Translations under genes and position numbers: made by a program
Notes under the pieces: generated by a model
What the model was told of the DNA's origin: nothing
Seen by the model: the letters and a program-made list of their open reading frames with translations, nothing else
Databases searched by the model: none
Assembly: GCF_020923495.1 (NCBI RefSeq)
Contig: NZ_CP064048.1
Span: forward strand, 1,017,501 to 1,081,500
Direction: 5' to 3'
Origin: Brevibacillus sedimenti
GTDB lineage: Bacteria > Bacillota > Bacilli > Brevibacillales > Brevibacillaceae
Length of the DNA: 64,000 bases
Part shown: positions 24,272-33,328 of the stretch, one piece after another
Position numbering within the stretch: the first letter of the stretch is position 1
Layout of the letters: each line of letters opens with the position of its first letter

Positions 24272-25633
24272 TCAAGCAGCTGCGTCGGCTTTGACCGTCC
24301 GCCGCTGCATCAGGAGCAGCCGGCCGAACAAAAACACGGCGCCTGCGGCCAGTCCGGCGATCAGGCCAATCCAATACCCGAACGCGGCCAGGGAGGTGTA
24401 GTTGGCCAAGAGATAGCCCAGCGGCAGGCCAATCACCCAGTAGGAGACAAGCGCGGCGACGAACGGGACCGTCACGTCCTTGTACCCGCGCAGAATGCCC
24501 TGGATCGGTGCAGCCACTGCGTCCGACAAGAGAAACAAAATGGAGTACATCAAGAAATGCTGTGTAAGCTGAAGCACGTCCGGGTCGGTCGTGTAAAAAC
24601 CGGCCACCTGTTGGCTAAACAGGAACAGCCCGACGGCGAACAAACTCGCCATCATCAGGGCGATGCCGATGCCCAAAAAGCTGTACTGGCGGGCGTCCCG
24701 GAATCGTTTGGCCCCCACTTCAAACCCGACCACGATCGTGAGCGACATGGAGATGCTCAGCGGCACCATGTAAATAAACGAAGCGAAGTTCATCGCCGCC
24801 TGGTGCGCCGCGATCGTAACCGTGTTGAATTGGCTCATCAGCAGCGTGACGGCGGCAAAAATGCTCACCTCGAAAAAGATCGAGAAGCCGATCGGCACGC
24901 CAAGCCGGAGCAGTTCTTTCCACGCCGGCAAGGACAAGCGGAACATCCGCGAAAACATCCTGTATTCGGTAAACGGCTGAACGCGATGCACCACGTACAA
25001 GCTGATCAGGGTGATGCACCAATAGGTGATGGCCGATGCCACCCCCGCACCGACGCCCCCGAGCCGGGGAAAACCGAACTTCCCGAAAATGAGCAGGTAG
25101 TTCAACGCGACGTTGATTGGCAGGGAAATCAGCGTAATGATCATCGTCACCCGCGTCATGCCGAGCGCGTCGATAAAACAGCGCAGCACCGTGTAGACAA
25201 ACATGGGGACGATGCCAAACGACAGCGCAATCAGGTATCGCCTGGCAATCTCGCGTACGTCCGTCTCCAGGCTCATGCTGTTCAAAATCGGCTCAAGAAC
25301 CAGCGCACCGCACAGGATGACAGCGACGCCGATCACGACGGACAAATAGAGCGCCTGTATGACTGTAAACGGCACCTGATCCTTCCGCATCGCCCCCACC
25401 AGTTGGGCCACCATCGGCGTCACCGCCAGCAGGATGCCGGTCAGCCCTGACTGGATCGGGACCCAGATGCTCGATCCGATCGCCACGCCCGCCAGGTCGA
25501 CGGGACCGGCGTGGCCGGACATGATCGTATCAAAAAAGGTCATGGAAAACAGGGCCAACTGCGAGACCAGAATCGGCAGCAGCACGGACAGGAACTGACG
25601 CAATTTTTCTTGGAGCGTGTGCGTTTGATACAT
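24272..25633 (-). CDS. MATE-family multidrug efflux protein
   Basis: A cation-coupled exporter of 453 residues with twelve predicted membrane segments in two similar halves. [20 protein letters not shown] near the N terminus and the second-half repeat around [19 protein letters not shown] fit the NorM-like branch of MATE proteins (MatE domain twice). GGAGGAGAA precedes the ATG at 25633. It is monocistronic, divergent from sspH and convergent with lplT. Typical substrates of the family are cationic drugs and dyes; the actual substrate cannot be read from the sequence. Confidence 0.92.
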
Positions 25634-25999: not shown

Positions 26000-26024
26000 A
26001 ACCTCCTGATAAAGGAGGTTTTTT
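26000..26024 (+). terminator. Terminator of sspH
   Basis: AACCTCC/GGAGGTT stem (26000-26006, 26014-26020) followed by TTTT, 18 bases after the stop. Confidence 0.88.
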
Positions 26025-28137
26025 ACACCGTGCCCGGAGACAGTGTCCCTGTCTTCTCGCCCATTGACACCCGCTCTCCCTGCTGCAGCTGATACATGTG
26101 ATAATAGCGGCCGCCCAGCTTCATCAGCGTCTCGTGGTCTCCCCGCTCCACGATTTCGCCCCGGTCCAGGACGAGAATCAGATCGGCATGTTTGATCGTC
26201 GACAGCCGATGGGCGATGATAAACGTCGTCCGCCCCTGTTTCACCACGTCCAGCGCCTCTTGAATAATCGCTTCTGTCTCCGTGTCAATGTTGGAAGTGG
26301 CTTCGTCAAGGATCAGGATGGCGGGATCAAATGCAAGCGCGCGGGCAAACGAGATGAGCTGCCGCTGTCCCGCCGACAGGGTGCTGCCTTTTTCCACTAC
26401 GGGCTCGTCGATGCCGTTGGGCAAATGCTTGAGCAGGCGATCCGCTCCAATCTCGCTCAGCACCTGTTCCACCCGCTCCCGGGAGATGGCAGGATCACCA
26501 AGCGACACGTTGGACGCGATCGTTCCCGTAAACAGGAACGGGTCCTGCAGTACGATACCCATGTGCTCCCGCAGGGTCTGACGGGGTATCTCGCAAATGT
26601 CCCGATCGTCGATGGCAATGCGTCCGCGGCTAGCGTCGTAAAAACGAAAAAGCAGGTTCAGGATGGAGCTTTTCCCGGACCCCGTATGTCCGACCAGCGC
26701 CACCGTCTGTCCCGGCATCGCCTCAAACGAAATGCCCTTGAGCACGTACTCGTCATCCTTGTAGGCAAACCAGACGTCCTCGAAGGTCACTTTCCCCTTG
26801 AACCGCTCCATCCTGTCGTCCGAGACATCTTCGCCCTTCTCGTCCAGCAAGACGAATACCCGCTCTGCGGAGACAAGCGCGGTCTCCAGGTTGGGCAGCT
26901 GATTCACAATACCGACAATCGGCTGAAACAGCCGGTTCAGATAATCGACAAACGCATACAGCACGCCAAGCGAGATCGCTCCCTCCACTCCGGAGATGGA
27001 GACACCGCCAAAATACCAGATCAGCGCCACAAAGGCGATCGTCCGAATCAACCCGACAAGATTGTGGCCGGTCAGGGCGTTTAAGCTGAGCAGCTTGCTG
27101 CGGTACGTGAAGTGGCGGGTATTGTGCTCCTCAAACTCCCGCTCTGTCTGTTTTTCCCGGCGAAACGCCTTAATCACCGCAATGCCCTGGATCGATTCGT
27201 TGATCATGGCGTTGATTTCGCTGAGGGTGGAGCGAATGACACGGTTGTACCGCTTGGCATACAGCCGGTAGACATACATCCACACCGCCAGCACGGGCAC
27301 GATGAACAGGCAGATTGCCGCCAACCGGACATCCAGCACGAATAGCGCGGCAAACACCCCGATCATGTAAATTGAACCGGTGAAAAAGTTGGCCAATACC
27401 GACACGTACAGCTCTCGTATTGACTCGGTGTCGTTGGTGATCCGCGACACGACCTTCCCCGCCGGCAGATTGTCAAAATAGCGGATCGGCAGCCGGTGAA
27501 TGTGAGCAAACACGTCCGTCCGCATTTTGCGGATGATGCGGTTGGCCGTGGCCTGCAGCAGGTATCGCTGACCGTAGCTGAACAGCGCTGACAAGACGAC
27601 CAACCCGAAATAGATCTGGCAGAGGTGAAGCAGCCCGTTCATCTCCGGTCGGAAAAACATATACATCTCTCCGACCGTCAGCCTGCGTGCTTCGTAGGTC
27701 TGCCTTTGCTCCCCATTTGTAATCAGCAAGCGCCCGTCTTCCGTGATGGATCGATCACCGTCAAAAGCAAGCGGGCTTTCGACAAAATAGTAGTCCCGGT
27801 TCACCTGCAGGACCCTGACCTCCGCACCGCGCGGCTCGTCTGCTGCAAAGCGGTCCGCCCGTTTGTACAGCTTTTCGCCGTACGCGACCGCATACGCCCC
27901 TTCCGCTTTCGTTTCGTACCAGGGCTGCTCGATGCCGGAAATGTGCACATCGATCATCCGCTTGGCGATCAGCGGCCCGGCCAGATCCGTGCCCACGGCC
28001 ACGGCGAGCATGAGCAGCGCCAGGATCAGCGAGGTCTTGAAATGCAGTGCGTATCGAATCAGCCGCCTGCCTGTTTTGGCCAGGCTGCCAGCAGTCCGGT
28101 CCATCTCCAAATCAAACGTTTTCCTCTCCATACTCAC
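26023..28137 (-). CDS. bmrD: ABC multidrug exporter subunit, BmrD/YheH-like
   Basis: A 704-residue fused membrane/ATPase protein that pairs with the upstream gene product as a heterodimeric exporter. Six membrane segments lie in the first 400 residues; a long insert between the first two (about residues 65-165) matches the extracytoplasmic domain of BmrD. The nucleotide domain has Walker A LVGHTGSGKSS, the signature LSAGQRQ and Walker B ILILDEATSNID with the catalytic Glu. ATG at 28137 overlaps the stop of the partner in ATGA. The Glu here, with Asp in the partner, means one active and one degenerate ATP site. Confidence 0.92.
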   Translation of the reverse strand: MSMERKTFDLEMDRTAGSLAKTGRRLIRYALHFKTSLILALLMLAVAVGTDLAGPLIAKRMIDVHISGIEQPWYETKAEGAYAVAYGEKLYKRADRFAADEPRGAEVRVLQVNRDYYFVESPLAFDGDRSITEDGRLLITNGEQRQTYEARRLTVGEMYMFFRPEMNGLLHLCQIYFGLVVLSALFSYGQRYLLQATANRIIRKMRTDVFAHIHRLPIRYFDNLPAGKVVSRITNDTESIRELYVSVLANFFTGSIYMIGVFAALFVLDVRLAAICLFIVPVLAVWMYVYRLYAKRYNRVIRSTLSEINAMINESIQGIAVIKAFRREKQTEREFEEHNTRHFTYRSKLLSLNALTGHNLVGLIRTIAFVALIWYFGGVSISGVEGAISLGVLYAFVDYLNRLFQPIVGIVNQLPNLETALVSAERVFVLLDEKGEDVSDDRMERFKGKVTFEDVWFAYKDDEYVLKGISFEAMPGQTVALVGHTGSGKSSILNLLFRFYDASRGRIAIDDRDICEIPRQTLREHMGIVLQDPFLFTGTIASNVSLGDPAISRERVEQVLSEIGADRLLKHLPNGIDEPVVEKGSTLSAGQRQLISFARALAFDPAILILDEATSNIDTETEAIIQEALDVVKQGRTTFIIAHRLSTIKHADLILVLDRGEIVERGDHETLMKLGGRYYHMYQLQQGERVSMGEKTGTLSPGTV

Positions 28138-29897
28138 GTTTGGTTCACCCTGCTTCCGGTCAGTATTGCTTCCACCTGCTGGCGTTCAAACTGCTCTTTG
28201 TACCAGCCGTCTTGTTTCATAAGCTGATCGTGCGTCCCCCGCTCCACAATCCGTCCTTCGTCGAGCACCAGGATGAGATCGGCGTGTTGAACAGCGGAGA
28301 GCCGGTGCGCCGCGATGATCGTGGTTTTGCCGGCACGCGCCCGGCGGATGTTGGCGATGATCTCCGCCTCTGTCCGCGCGTCCACCGCCGACATCGCATC
28401 GTCCAGGATGAGAATGGGCGGATCGCTAATCAGCGCCCGTGCGATGGAGACCCGCTGTTTCTGTCCGCCCGAGAGCGCGACGCCTTTTTCCCCGACAAGC
28501 GTTTCCAACCCGTGCGGCAGGTAAGCCAAGTCCTTTTGAAACGCCGACGCCGCGATCGCCTCGTCCAACTGCTCCGCTGTCGCACCGCCACTGCCAAAAA
28601 GAATATTGTTTCTCACCGATCTTGAGAACAAAAACTGCTCCTGCGGCACATACCCGTACCACGATTTCAGCTGATCCATGTCAATCCGCTCGATCGGGAT
28701 GCCGGAGATGGTGATGAATCCTTCTCCCGGCGGATATTCCCGCAGCAATTGCTTGATGAGCGTCGTTTTGCCGCTGCCGGTGCGTCCCACCAGCCCCAGC
28801 GTCTGTCCTTTTTCCAGGGTAAAGGTCACGTCCTCCAAATTGTTGACGGCAGACGTCGGATACCGAAATGTCACGTGCTTAAATTCGATTCGTTCGGGAC
28901 GTTCCACCGCGATCGTCTCCTTTGGTTCGGGAACGTCAGGAGGACAGTTGAGCGTCTCACTGACCCGATCCAGAGAGGCATTGCCGCGCTGCATGATGTT
29001 AATCATCTCGCCGATCGCGAACATCGGCCAAATCAGCATGCCCAGGTAAACGTTGAAGGCCACCAGACCGCCGATCGTCAATTCGTTGTGAAAGACCAGG
29101 GAGGCCCCGTACCCAAGCCCGATCAGGTAACTGGCCCCGACAAATATCTTGATCGTCGGCTCGAACAGGGCGTCGATCCTGGCCACGGCCAGATTCTTCT
29201 CCAGCACGTTCCGGGTCACATCGGCAAAATGCCTCTCTACCGCCCGCTCCTGCACGTACGCCCGGATTACGCGAATGCCCGAGATCGTCTCCAGTACGCC
29301 GTCATTCATCTCGCCAAACGCATCCTGCGCCGCCGTAAACCGCGCATGCATCCATTTCCCGTAAAAACTGATCAGCACCGCCATGATCGGCATCGGCAAT
29401 ACAGCCGCCAGCGTCAGCTTCCAGGAGACAAACGAAACCATCGTCACCAGGAGCGTCGCCATCCACACCGTGGAGTCAATGAACGTCAAAATCCCAAAGC
29501 CGGCCGTCTGCGAAATCGCCTGCAGGTCGTTCGTTGCCCGGGCCATCAAGTCACCTGTACGGTTCCGTTCAAAAAAGGGCGGGCTCATCTTGAGAAAATG
29601 GCGCATCAGCCGGGACCGCATCAGCCGCTCCACCACAAAGGCCCCTCCAAACAGATGATACATCCACACGTAGGTGATTAGGTAAACAGCCACTGCGATT
29701 ACACCCAGCAAGATCAGCGTCCGTGTCAACCCTTCCCACGTCAGCGTCCCGTGCTGAATGGCGTCAATCGAACGGCCCACCATCATCGGCGGCATCACCT
29801 CCAGGATGCCGGCAAAGATGAGCAGCGACACGGCAAGCGTATACCGTTTCCACTCGCGCCTGAAAAACCATCCCAGCTTTTGTATGACCGACAGCAT
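28134..29897 (-). CDS. bmrC: ABC multidrug exporter subunit, BmrC/YheI-like
   Basis: A 587-residue half-transporter with six membrane segments (about residues 1-310) and an ATPase domain: Walker A LVGRTGSGKTT, signature LSGGQKQRVSIARAL and Walker B ILILDDAMSAVD, where Asp replaces the catalytic Glu as in B. subtilis BmrC. It therefore forms the degenerate site of a BmrCD-type heterodimer. The gene lies behind a leader with a terminator and small ORF, which fits the ribosome-mediated attenuation known for bmrCD in B. subtilis. GAGGAGGGGAAACCAC precedes the ATG. Confidence 0.93.
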   Translation of the reverse strand: MLSVIQKLGWFFRREWKRYTLAVSLLIFAGILEVMPPMMVGRSIDAIQHGTLTWEGLTRTLILLGVIAVAVYLITYVWMYHLFGGAFVVERLMRSRLMRHFLKMSPPFFERNRTGDLMARATNDLQAISQTAGFGILTFIDSTVWMATLLVTMVSFVSWKLTLAAVLPMPIMAVLISFYGKWMHARFTAAQDAFGEMNDGVLETISGIRVIRAYVQERAVERHFADVTRNVLEKNLAVARIDALFEPTIKIFVGASYLIGLGYGASLVFHNELTIGGLVAFNVYLGMLIWPMFAIGEMINIMQRGNASLDRVSETLNCPPDVPEPKETIAVERPERIEFKHVTFRYPTSAVNNLEDVTFTLEKGQTLGLVGRTGSGKTTLIKQLLREYPPGEGFITISGIPIERIDMDQLKSWYGYVPQEQFLFSRSVRNNILFGSGGATAEQLDEAIAASAFQKDLAYLPHGLETLVGEKGVALSGGQKQRVSIARALISDPPILILDDAMSAVDARTEAEIIANIRRARAGKTTIIAAHRLSAVQHADLILVLDEGRIVERGTHDQLMKQDGWYKEQFERQQVEAILTGSRVNQT

Positions 29898-29929: not shown

Positions 29930-29960
29930 AAAAAGCACACCACTCGGGAGCGGTGTGCTT
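29930..29960 (-). terminator. Leader terminator (attenuator) in front of bmrC
   Basis: On the minus strand AAGCACACC (29960-29952) pairs with GGTGTGCTT (29941-29933) and runs into TTTTT. It ends 33 bases before the bmrC start with no other gene on this strand to terminate, so it probably controls readthrough into bmrCD. Confidence 0.8.
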
Positions 29961-29976
29961 GTCACAACGATTGAAG

Positions 29977-30027
29977 TTAAGAAAATCGCATGCCACGAGG
30001 GTGCGTGACCTGCGCCTGCTTACGCAT
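29977..30027 (-). CDS. Possible bmrCD leader peptide, MRKQAQVTHPRGMRFS
   Basis: A 16-codon ORF ends 17 bases before the leader terminator stem. That spacing suits ribosome-coupled attenuation, where a stalled ribosome would let polymerase pass the terminator. There is no clear Shine-Dalgarno sequence, so translation is uncertain; a four-codon ORF MRFS in the same frame is another option. The peptide does not look like a sequence I remember for B. subtilis BmrB. Confidence 0.35.
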   Translation of the reverse strand: MRKQAQVTHPRGMRFS

Positions 30028-30088
30028 ATGCAGCAAAAATGATACGTGTGCACTGTACTGCTCTTGGCGTCAGAAGGGAGGTCACATC

Positions 30089-30199
30089 ATGAGCTATGGA
30101 ATTGTGACCGGCATCAAACGAAATCCAATTCCGGATCATGACAGACACCCCTCCTTTTCAGAAAATTTTATCGTTGCGTATACTGGTACGGTAACATGA
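30089..30199 (+). CDS. Possible 36-residue peptide of unknown function
   Basis: MSYGIVTGIKRNPIPD begins six bases after a strong AGAAGGGAGG site at 30071-30080 and ends at TGA 30197. The peptide has no membrane segment and no cysteine, and I do not recognise it. It is divergent from the bmrCD leader. The good ribosome binding site is the only evidence for it; it could be the remnant N terminus of a longer gene. Confidence 0.35.
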   Translation: MSYGIVTGIKRNPIPDHDRHPSFSENFIVAYTGTVT

Positions 30200-30349
30200 A
30201 TGGATACCACTGTCAATTCCTTTTCCCGCGACGGGCCATCGCCACTGTCCTCCCTGGTTCGTCCAGGGGAAGCCGTCAGACGGTTAATGCGTGCTCGCCG
30301 ATCCTTCCGATGTCAGCATTTGACAGAACCATCTGTTCTGGCAAGCCGC

Positions 30350-30425: not shown

Positions 30426-31256
30426 TCATGCCCCTTTTTCATGCGTACGGGCTCGTTCAACCGCTGCATGCGCCAACCCATACGGCAGACACAGCGGCAC
30501 CCCTGTTCGCGGGTCGGGCACAATATCCGCTTCGATCCCGAATACTTCACGCAGCACGTCATGCGTCATCACCTGATCGGGGGCGCCTTCGCATACGACC
30601 TTACCCTTTTTGATCGCGATCATGTGCTGGGCGTAACGCGCCGCATGGTTCAGGTCATGCACCACCATGACAATCGTGCGCTGTTCCTCTTGATTCAGCT
30701 TGTGCAGCAGTTCGAGCACTTCCAACTGGTGAGCCATGTCCAGGAACGTCGTCGGCTCATCGAGAAACAAGAAATCGGTCTGCTGGGCCAGCGCCATGGC
30801 GATCCATGCCCGCTGCCGCTGCCCGCCGGACAGTTGTTCGACCGGACGGTCATGAAAATCCACGATGCCGGTGACCTCAATCGCCCACTGTATGATTCGC
30901 TTGTCCTCCTGCGTCAACGAACCCAATCCTCTCTGGTGAGGAAACCGCCCGTAGCCAACCAGTTCGGAGACGGTAAGCCCGTCGGGGGCCGTTGGATTTT
31001 GCGGCAAAATGGCAAGCTGTTTGGCCACTTCCTTGGTCGACTGGCTGTGAATCGCTTTGCCGTCGAGGAAAACAGCCCCGTTTTTCGGCTTCATGATCCG
31101 CGCCAGCGTCTTGAGGATCGTAGACTTCCCGGAACCGTTGGCACCCACCAGGGCCGTGATTTTCCCCGTAGGGATGCTCAGATTCAACTGTTCCACAATG
31201 ATGCGATCACCATAGGCGATATCTACCTGCTGTGCATACAGACGTCCCATAAACAC
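30426..31256 (-). CDS. Iron-siderophore ABC transporter ATP-binding protein (FecE/FhuC type)
   Basis: A 276-residue ATPase that powers siderophore import. Walker [12 protein letters not shown], signature [15 protein letters not shown], Walker [13 protein letters not shown] and the switch His in [12 protein letters not shown] are all intact. The spacing of [14 protein letters not shown] and [15 protein letters not shown] is typical of the FecE/FhuC/YusV group. It is the last gene of a three-gene operon behind two FecCD-type permeases; the Fur-like box upstream suggests iron control. No binding-protein gene is adjacent, so this ATPase may serve several binding proteins made elsewhere, as YusV does in B. 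subtilis. Confidence 0.93.
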
Positions 31257-31271
31257 TTACGCCTCCATTCA

Positions 31272-32297
31272 TCAGGTCTTCATCAGCAAATAGATGAAGT
31301 ACGGTGCGCCAATAACGGCCACGACAATGCCGACGGGAATCTCCGAGGGCTGCAGAATCCAGCGAGCCAGTGTGTCCGCCACGATTAACAGCAGTCCTCC
31401 CGTCAGTGCGGAAGCAGGAATCAGATACTGGTGATGGGGACCGACCAGCCGCCGCGCCAGGTGAGGCGCAATCAGACCGACAAAGCCGATGCCGCCTCCG
31501 ACCGACACGCTTGCGCCCGCTAACCCGACCGCTGCGGCAAGCAGTCTGATCCGTTCCCGTTCCGTGGACGTGCCAAGACCAATCGCGAGCGGTTCTCCCA
31601 AGCGCAGGATATCCATTACCCGCGCTTTCACCATGACATAGGGAAGCAGGATGATGAGCCAGGGCAGCAAAGCCAGGACAAAGTGCCAGTTCGCTCCCCA
31701 GATGCTGCCCGCCAGCCACACGGAAACAAACTGAAATTTTTCGGGATTCAGCTTGATCGTAAGCACGATCATGGCGGCGCTAATGCCCGCAGAAACGGCA
31801 ATCCCCACCAGAATGAGCCGCGTCGGCGCAACACCCTGTCCCTTTCGGAAGGCCAGGGAGTAGATGAGTGCGGCAGTCAGGGAAGCGCCTGCAAATGCAC
31901 ACAACGGCAGCAGGTAAACAGGCGCGCCTTCCGTCATCGGATAAAAGGAAATAACCAGGATCACCGCGAGGCCTGCCCCTGCGCTGATTCCCAACAAGCC
32001 CGGATCAGCCAGTGCATTCCGGGAAACGCCCTGCAATATCGCCCCGGAGACAGCCAACCCCGCTCCCACCAGCACAGAAAGAACGATACGAGGCAGCCGA
32101 AAGTCAAACAAGACAAGCTCCTGTTTCTCGGTGCCTGCGCCTGCCAGCGTCTTCATGACATCCCACGGCGAGAGTTTGATAAACCCCGTGTTCATGCTGA
32201 TGAGAAACGACGCAAACATCAATACGCCCAGCACGGCCATAACCTTGGCTGCACGGATTTTTCGCCGGTTTTCCACGGACCCTGCCATCGCTTTCAT
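31272..32297 (-). CDS. Iron-siderophore ABC transporter permease (FecD type)
   Basis: A 341-residue permease with about nine to ten membrane segments. RLPRIVLSVLVGAGLAVSG, AILQGVSRNALADPGLLGIS and GGIGFVGLIAPHLARRLVG are hallmarks of the FecCD/BtuC family. ATG at 32297 overlaps the preceding stop (ATGA) and is preceded by AAAGGAGGGAATTGGG; a longer in-frame extension upstream encodes no membrane protein sequence and is rejected. It forms the membrane channel with the upstream permease. Confidence 0.93.
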   Translation of the reverse strand: MKAMAGSVENRRKIRAAKVMAVLGVLMFASFLISMNTGFIKLSPWDVMKTLAGAGTEKQELVLFDFRLPRIVLSVLVGAGLAVSGAILQGVSRNALADPGLLGISAGAGLAVILVISFYPMTEGAPVYLLPLCAFAGASLTAALIYSLAFRKGQGVAPTRLILVGIAVSAGISAAMIVLTIKLNPEKFQFVSVWLAGSIWGANWHFVLALLPWLIILLPYVMVKARVMDILRLGEPLAIGLGTSTERERIRLLAAAVGLAGASVSVGGGIGFVGLIAPHLARRLVGPHHQYLIPASALTGGLLLIVADTLARWILQPSEIPVGIVVAVIGAPYFIYLLMKT

Positions 32298-33328
32298 CCC
32301 AATTCCCTCCTTTCCCTGCGGGCCAAGCAGAGGAAAAAGGGCACGCCGAGCAGGGCAATCAGGGCGCCTACCGGCGTTTCGTAAGGCGGATTGATCATTC
32401 TCGCGCCAATATCGGCAAACACCATGAGCACACTGCCCAGCACGGCAGAGCACGGAATGATCCACCGGTAGTCTACGCCTACCAAAAAACGAGCCACATG
32501 CGGGATAACCAAACCGATAAAGCCAATCATGCCGACCGTAGACACCGCCGCCCCCGCCAGGATTAAAACGATCACGGCACCGGCAAGCTTGACGCGACCT
32601 GTTCGCTGCCCCAAACCGGCTGCCATTTCTTCTCCCAGACTAAACACCGTGATGGAACGGGAAAGCATCAGGGCCGCGACCAAACCAGCCACAATCCACG
32701 GGAACATGATCCTGATGTGAAGCCACGTGGCTCCCGCTACACCGCCTGCGTACCAGTAGGCCAGTTCCTGCCCCACCTGGTAGTAGATCGCCACGCCTTC
32801 GCTGAGGGCCACGAGCAGAGCGCTGACGGCTGCGCCAGCCAAAGCCAGCCTGACCGGAGTCAATCCTCCTTTGGCCAGGGAACCGATCCCATACACCAGC
32901 CCCGCCCCCAGACCGGCGCCGAGGAAGGAGAACAGGATCACGTACGGAAAAGGCAGGCTGGGCCACAATGCAAAACAAAGCGCCAACACGAAGCCCGAAC
33001 CGGCATTCACGCCGAGAAGGCCGGGGTCTGCCAACGGGTTGCGGGTCATCCCCTGCATGATCGCGCCCGCCACGGCAAAACCGGCGCCAACCAGCGCTCC
33101 GCACAACGCCCGAGGCAATCGCAACTCCTGAATGATTTGGTGCTGTGTCACATCTGACTGAAAATGAAAGAGCGCTTCCCATACTGTCAGCAGGTGAATG
33201 TCAGCTGTCCCAACGGAAATCGAAAGGGTCAAACCAAGCACAAGCAGTATCAACCCGCCGAAGAGAATGAACAAAGCCAAAACGGGCCGAGTTTGCATGG
33301 GGGGTTTTGGTTTGGATGCTGCTGACAT
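32294..33328 (-). CDS. Iron-siderophore ABC transporter permease (FecC type)
   Basis: A 344-residue FecCD-family permease, first gene of the operon. RLPRALCGALVGAGFAVAG, AIMQGMTRNPLADPGLLGV and GMIGFIGLVIPHVARFLVG are intact. Roughly nine to ten membrane segments. It lies directly behind a Fur-box-like sequence at 33393-33407. A substrate-binding lipoprotein normally precedes such permeases; none is present here, so the siderophore cannot be named. Confidence 0.93.
   Translation of the reverse strand: MSAASKPKPPMQTRPVLALFILFGGLILLVLGLTLSISVGTADIHLLTVWEALFHFQSDVTQHQIIQELRLPRALCGALVGAGFAVAGAIMQGMTRNPLADPGLLGVNAGSGFVLALCFALWPSLPFPYVILFSFLGAGLGAGLVYGIGSLAKGGLTPVRLALAGAAVSALLVALSEGVAIYYQVGQELAYWYAGGVAGATWLHIRIMFPWIVAGLVAALMLSRSITVFSLGEEMAAGLGQRTGRVKLAGAVIVLILAGAAVSTVGMIGFIGLVIPHVARFLVGVDYRWIIPCSAVLGSVLMVFADIGARMINPPYETPVGALIALLGVPFFLCLARRERRELG

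Follow-up and report, generated by a model that had tools for sequence, protein, structure and literature searches.

A leader with a short open reading frame and two tandem hairpins precedes the bmrC orthologue of Brevibacillus sedimenti and is probably a ribosome-mediated transcription attenuator related to that of Bacillus subtilis bmrB

The DNA analyzed here (the window) is a stretch of 64,000 nucleotides from Brevibacillus sedimenti that carries, on the minus strand, a pair of genes for ABC exporter halves (Table 1). Comparison by phmmer of the product of the first gene gave a score of 820.7 bits over 574 residues with B. subtilis YheI/BmrC (PDB 8t1p) and of 461 bits with the next different solved protein. 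On the basis of sequence, this protein is the BmrC (YheI) orthologue, and the product of the adjoining gene is the second half of the heterodimeric exporter. A MATE-family efflux gene (24272-25633, minus strand) lies downstream of the pair. At a cut of at least 60% identity, a bmrC orthologue was found in 21 of the 26 genomes of the window's genus and in 27 of the 39 genomes of its family; the remaining genomes contained, at the cut used, just a paralogue of ∼50% identity. Upstream of paralogous exporter halves (∼51-52% identical; L023, L024, L026 and L030), a terminator-like hairpin directly follows a promoter-like site and no leader ORF is evident.

The region upstream of bmrC contains a promoter-like site, a strong Shine-Dalgarno (SD) region, a leader ORF of 39 codons and two hairpins, termed H1 and H2. 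The same order, that is, a TTGACA-like promoter, SD, short ORF, H1, H2 and the gene, is the layout of the family across 27 orthologue upstream regions. Of 26 scanned family orthologues, 20 have the −35-like hexamer TTGACA at a distance of 60-230 nt upstream of H1, three have TTGACG, one has TTGACT and two have none of these. The −10-like element of the window was missed by a consensus promoter scan; its counterparts, identified by eye, are TACCGT in L003, TACCTT in L062, TACGTT in L063 and TAAAGT in the main clade. An SD-led ORF occupies the leader position in 24 of the 27 family orthologues and typically contains CATGAYGTRACC, and the 5′ arm of H1 in the family reads GCGYAGGTYAC. Both the SD and the leader ORF are absent from L004, L017 and L018, in which hairpins follow shortly after the promoter; these three may be uninducible or differently controlled. 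In the window, the 39-codon ORF stops at 30020, upstream of both H1 and H2. The earlier note on this DNA dealt with positions 29930-30027, outside which the 39-codon ORF and the promoter-like site lie; it had missed both of these, as well as the SD region AAAAGGAGGGG and H1 as a hairpin.

Table 1. Features of the bmrCD locus and its leader in the window
Feature	Position	Strand	Description
−35-like element of the leader promoter	30211-30216	−	TTGACA; read from sequence
−10-like element	30188-30193	−	TACCGT, weak match, spacer 17; read from sequence
SD region of the leader ORF	30148-30158	−	AAAAGGAGGGG; doubles as one strand of P0, the predicted anti-antiterminator
Leader ORF	30020-30139	−	39 codons, ATG start, MIRNWISFDAGHNSIAHDVTSLLTPRAVQCTRIIFAAYA then stop
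Predicted antiterminator strand	30079-30086	−	TGTGACCT, ORF codons ∼18-21; can form helix P1 with the complementary AGGTCACG in the H1 5′ arm
16-codon ORF	29977-30027	−	Rejected as leader peptide; lacks an SD; ATG not kept in L003; crosses H1
Hairpin H1	29986-30015	−	First, weaker terminator-like hairpin, −12.5 kcal/mol, then TTTTCTT
Hairpin H2	29933-29960	−	Predicted main intrinsic terminator, with U tract, −18.4 kcal/mol; hairpin of the earlier note
bmrC orthologue	28134-29897	−	ABC exporter half, 587 aa, putative controlled gene; phmmer vs. B. subtilis YheI/BmrC
bmrD-like gene	26023-28137	−	ABC exporter half, 704 aa; start overlaps bmrC stop

The hairpin to which the earlier note drew attention is H2. 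It is present 35 nt ahead of the bmrC ATG (29897), with nine Watson-Crick pairs counted from its base and a U tract after it; in total it comprises 12 pairs, one of them G-U, and a loop of 4. The observation is thus real, but the hairpin is the final element of a more extensive leader. Terminator-like hairpins of at least 12 pairs gave 17 strand-hits in the window, some hairpins being counted on both strands, vs. 0-2 in each of six dinucleotide shuffles, and a laxer consensus terminator scan of 6 kb revealed no excess (7 hits vs. 7.1 expected). In an alignment of 24 family leaders (A1, from which L004, L017 and L018 were left out), 95.4% of cells were paired in H1 and 97.0% in H2, with two and three pairs, respectively, changed on both sides. 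These counts of both-side changes were equalled by 38 of 500 shuffles for H1 and by 59 of 500 for H2, and slid controls for H2 were 39-71% paired. A run of at least TTTT follows H1 in all 24 aligned leaders.

Upstream regions of BmrC orthologues from across the Bacilli were scored with a rule that requires an SD-led ORF (14-45 codons) and a terminator after it. At a strict cut, 131 of 398 class genomes were matched, and part of their upstream regions are among the 211 scored; the set is redundant, given that several species were drawn from two collections, and L170 was excluded from all counts. The rule called 189 of the 211 orthologue regions and 4 of 40 window genes, one of which is bmrC itself. 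At least two terminators were present in 120 of the 211 regions vs. one of the 40 window genes, again bmrC. Inspection by eye judged the ORF pick to be wrong in eight of the 189 leaders (L008, L018, L118, L119, L159, L160, L182 and L243), a proper leader ORF being present in L008 despite the wrong pick. Another 29 in which the first detected terminator lay >70 nt past the ORF were dropped, leaving 152 leaders in 17 clusters, which were formed at a loose identity cut and in some cases mix genera.

Two further observations were made in these regions. Among 150 distinct leader peptides from 181 loci, the sequence QLN occurs in 36 (shuffled mean 1.5) and VT in 56 (shuffled mean 22.1), at residues 15-23 in 52 of the 56. 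In Bacillus and relatives (L091, L078, L068 and others), a second SD-led ORF, mostly of 16-27 codons, is located after H2 and just before bmrC; its N-terminus is variable and its end constant (…LE(S/G)G-stop or similar). This second ORF is found in 106 of the 211 regions of the redundant set, 85 of which end in (S/G/D)G, and is absent from the window, where only 35 nt separate H2 from bmrC.

The stretch of the leader ORF that is complementary to the 5′ arm of H1 (P1) is also involved in pairing to the SD region (P0). These complementarities were assessed by permuting the pairing partners among the leader clusters (5000 permutations). For SD:ORF pairing, the native mean over 17 clusters was −18.4 kcal/mol vs. 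−13.8 kcal/mol after swapping, and none of the 5000 swaps was as good. For pairing of the ORF with the H1 5′ arm, the values were −14.2 and −12.2 kcal/mol (17 clusters; 6 of 5000 swaps), with just 5 of the 17 clusters falling individually in the top tenth. By the same procedure, pairing between the 3′ side of H1 and the 5′ arm of H2 was not significant (−10.0 vs. −9.3 kcal/mol; 961 of 5000 swaps; 13 usable of 17 clusters), so that an antiterminator of this composition is unsupported across the Bacilli, although it is strong in single folds. An antiterminator pairing, for which the earlier note had suggested a search by structure prediction, is thus predicted between the ORF and the H1 5′ arm, above the swapped controls.

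Within the family alignment, 97.9% of P1 cells were paired, as compared with 18-51% for slid controls. One P1 pair is A-U in 19 leaders and G-C in four, and the helix reads GUGACC/GGUCAC in the window's clade and GUAACC/GGUUAC in the main clade. Given that a single pair changes on both sides, a result reached by 264 of 500 shuffles, covariation of P1 within the family is modest. P1-like pairs seen by eye outside the family include GCAACC/GGUUGC in Paenibacillus and GCGCGG/CCGCGC in B. subtilis. The register of P0 differs from clade to clade, which precluded a count by alignment column.

The effect of a stalled ribosome was mimicked in silico by removing the leader from the SD to +28, as with a ribosome held near codon 5, in RNAs that end in the H1 loop. 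The mean probability of P1 over 24 leaders was 0.23 for the free leader and 0.83 once this 5′ part was removed, with an increase in 20 leaders and a decrease in none; for the window, with H1 half made, the values were 0.09 and 0.97. When the 5′ part was instead shuffled (20 times for each leader), the mean P1 probability was 0.54 (0.96 for the window) and exceeded the native value in 20 of the 24 leaders, which indicates that the native 5′ part restrains the strand. In L062, L020, L021 and L064-L066, P1 was already high in the free leader. Addition of the H1 3′ arm gave, at equilibrium, mean H1 probabilities of 0.93 for the free leader and 0.74 with the 5′ part removed (0.75 and 0.77, respectively, for the window), and in the latter state P1 had a mean of 0.19 (0.05 for the window). 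Once complete, H1 thus prevails on average at equilibrium, also in leaders that lack the 5′ part, and the model described below needs co-transcriptional kinetics for read-through. Minimum-energy folds of the whole window leader varied with the ends chosen: in one, P1 replaces H1 without a ribosome, and a longer fold contains a P0-like SD pairing together with H1.

The elements described above, which are conserved and whose pairing in P0, P1, H1 and H2 exceeds that of controls, make it probable that bmrCD is controlled by ribosome-mediated attenuation of transcription, through a leader homologous to that of B. subtilis bmrB. Transcription would start ∼40 nt before the well-initiated 39-codon ORF, and codons ∼18-21 (UGUGACCU) would pair either with the ORF's own SD region (P0, the predicted anti-antiterminator) or with the H1 5′ arm (P1, the predicted antiterminator). 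With no ribosome on the leader, P0 would hold the strand, and with a fast ribosome the strand would be covered; in either case H1 and H2 would form and transcription would stop, mainly at H2. An antibiotic that holds the ribosome in the first codons would leave the SD side occupied and the strand released, whereupon P1 would form ahead of synthesis of the H1 3′ arm, and a fraction of the polymerases would read through into bmrCD. We infer here that H1 and H2 terminate transcription in the cell, that stalling leads to read-through and that disruption of H1 reaches H2. Comparison thus gives good support to the attenuator that the earlier note placed before a BmrC/BmrD-like exporter. It does not support the accompanying idea of an independent, non-homologous solution, since the layout and the complementarities are common to the window's family, to Bacillus and relatives including B. 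subtilis, and to Paenibacillus.

Several other readings of the locus were weighed. The leader peptide named in the earlier note was a 16-codon ORF (30027-29977; MRKQAQVTHPRGMRFS), and it is extremely unlikely that this ORF encodes a sensor peptide unrelated to BmrB. The frame is indeed open, and coupled re-initiation is conceivable because the stop of the 39-codon ORF and the start of the 16-codon ORF overlap (ATGCGTAA); L006, L007 and L022 have an in-frame ATG 9 nt further on. However, the 16-codon ORF has no SD, as had been conceded, and among the 26 family orthologues scanned (the landmark used did not recover L019, the 27th) no start of this frame at or before H1 has an SD match of at least 5. 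The ATG is AAG in L003, an orthologue of 93% identity, TAG within the H1 5′ arm closes the frame in 12 of the 26, and a ribosome translating the frame, which spans H1, would break that hairpin. The 16-codon ORF was rejected as the leader. It is likewise very unlikely that the hairpin before bmrC is a plain terminator of the siderophore-type ABC operon upstream (30426-33328), leaving bmrC without special control. The operon is on the same strand and the hairpin lies 466 nt past the stop of its nearest gene, but that gene already has a strong, separate hairpin and U tract of its own behind it (30430-30356, −21.0 kcal/mol), on account of which this reading was made less likely and rejected; moreover, a promoter-like site and an SD-led ORF are located in between, and orthologues retain the ORF, the hairpins and the complementarity.

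A leader that senses a ligand or an RNA-binding protein rather than ribosome stalling, with the ORF of importance as RNA only, is improbable. Much of the conservation does fall in the pairing segment, and the peptide motif is, for most of the B. subtilis/velezensis group, in a different frame from that of the SD-ATG; against this, a strong SD and an open frame recur, no Rfam family matched the window at gathering score, and the B. subtilis orthologue, according to the accessible text of PMC4191407, answers translation inhibitors and needs leader translation. The proposed ribosome-mediated attenuator is itself compatible with a version in which termination falls to H2 alone, as in B. subtilis, and H1 acts only in anti-antitermination or pausing; the likelihood of this version falls somewhat short of even. 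H1 is the weaker hairpin, an A separates its stem from the U tract, and the counterpart hairpin in B. subtilis and in Paenibacillus examples is without a U tract, against which stands the U tract common to the aligned family leaders.

Control of bmrCD has been dissected in B. subtilis, where lincomycin, erythromycin and chloramphenicol induce the genes via a terminator in bmrB, and where translation of bmrB is required for induction and its blocking lowers expression (Reilman et al. 2014, PMC4191407, accessible text). Such lowered expression is as P0 predicts, and P0 thus offers a reason for it. The same text calls the role of the bmrB anti-antiterminator unclear, and its accessible part contains no description of P0 or P1 for bmrB. 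The window shares with this system, as presented there, the orthologous gene, an SD with a short ORF, and two hairpins ahead of bmrC, the second being the terminator; for the B. subtilis sequence (L223), too, SD:ORF and ORF:H1 complementarities are predicted. By contrast, the annotated 53-codon B. subtilis ORF runs through the terminator, whereas the window ORF stops before H1, and H1 of the window has its own U tract. L223 was taken as B. subtilis; its BmrC is 100% identical, it yields the annotated 53-residue BmrB, and it has C at both of the mutated positions 136 and 140, with H1 at nt 75-97 and H2 at nt 112-141. The annotated ORF in L223 ends 125 nt before the bmrC ATG used, a distance given as 119 in the accessible text of PMC4191407. 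The published bmrB anti-antiterminator, antiterminator and terminator would correspond to H1, to H1 3′ arm:H2 5′ arm and to H2, respectively.

A strong SD with an ATG was observed in all 17 leaders of the subtilis/velezensis group (L223-L239), opening an ORF of 23-32 codons that is mostly in a frame other than that of annotated BmrB. The annotated GTG start is present in 7 and missing in 4 of 11 leaders (L223-L233). In B. subtilis and most of the group, the QLNxxVT-like motif of other genera lies in the annotated BmrB frame and not in the SD-ATG frame, which weakens the idea of an error in the B. subtilis BmrB annotation; the choice between the two frames, from the SD-ATG or from the annotated GTG, is a point of interest for that species.

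The accessible text of PMC5418344 and PMC7828314 also deals with bmrCD control in B. subtilis, and that of PMC11109978 contains neither 'Brevibacillus' nor 'bmr'. No dissection of a bmrCD leader outside B. subtilis was found in the literature searched, which consisted mostly of papers free of subscription. In B. cereus, BC0870 is induced ∼thirtyfold by tetracycline, >tenfold by chloramphenicol and ∼threefold by erythromycin, and its authors report possible stem-loops upstream (PMC5417439, accessible text). BC0870/BC0871 thus resemble the window genes as BmrC/BmrD orthologues, in their induction by ribosome-targeting antibiotics and in their upstream stem-loops, but differ in that, in that text, the leader is undissected and no clear BmrB homologue was seen. 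In the B. subtilis vmlR leader, as described in the accessible text of Takada et al. 2022 (PMC9226507), a ribosome stalled on the uORF similarly blocks an anti-antiterminator, such that an antiterminator forms and termination is avoided; vmlR differs, however, in its three-codon uORF, its ABCF gene and a hairpin that sequesters the vmlR SD, whereas the window has a 39-codon ORF before an ABC exporter half. The ermC and cat-86 leaders share control of a resistance gene by an antibiotic-stalled ribosome on a leader peptide, with the difference that ermC control acts on the translation of the gene and not on termination (PMC4191407, accessible text).

Like the BmrB-type leader, that of the window lies directly upstream of a bmrC orthologue and has a short ORF with SD and ATG, the intrinsic terminator H2 and, by prediction, the alternative antiterminator P1 and anti-antiterminator P0 above swapped controls. 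Given that the terminator is not inside the leader coding sequence, as it is annotated to be in B. subtilis, the leader was filed as a variant and not as a BmrB member. What is new here is the presence of two tandem hairpins outside the ORF and the comparative case for an anti-antiterminator that uses the ORF's own SD.

A broader proposal is offered tentatively. The bmrCD leader widespread in Bacilli may be a chain of mutually exclusive helices, in the order SD:ORF, ORF:H1 5′ arm, H1, H1 3′ arm:H2 5′ arm and H2, in which the SD of the leader ORF is itself one strand and a ribosome in the first codons could simultaneously disable two terminators in tandem. Such a chain might account both for the bmrB anti-antiterminator of B. 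subtilis and for the unrecognized BmrB of B. cereus, the peptide having diverged while the RNA layout stays. It would thus bear on B. cereus bmrCD, which is drug-induced though no BmrB homologue was seen (PMC5417439, accessible text). A form of control dissected in one species would become a comparative family across several groups of Bacilli, and, with regard to drug efflux, several lineages may couple the bmrCD exporter to ribosome stalling.
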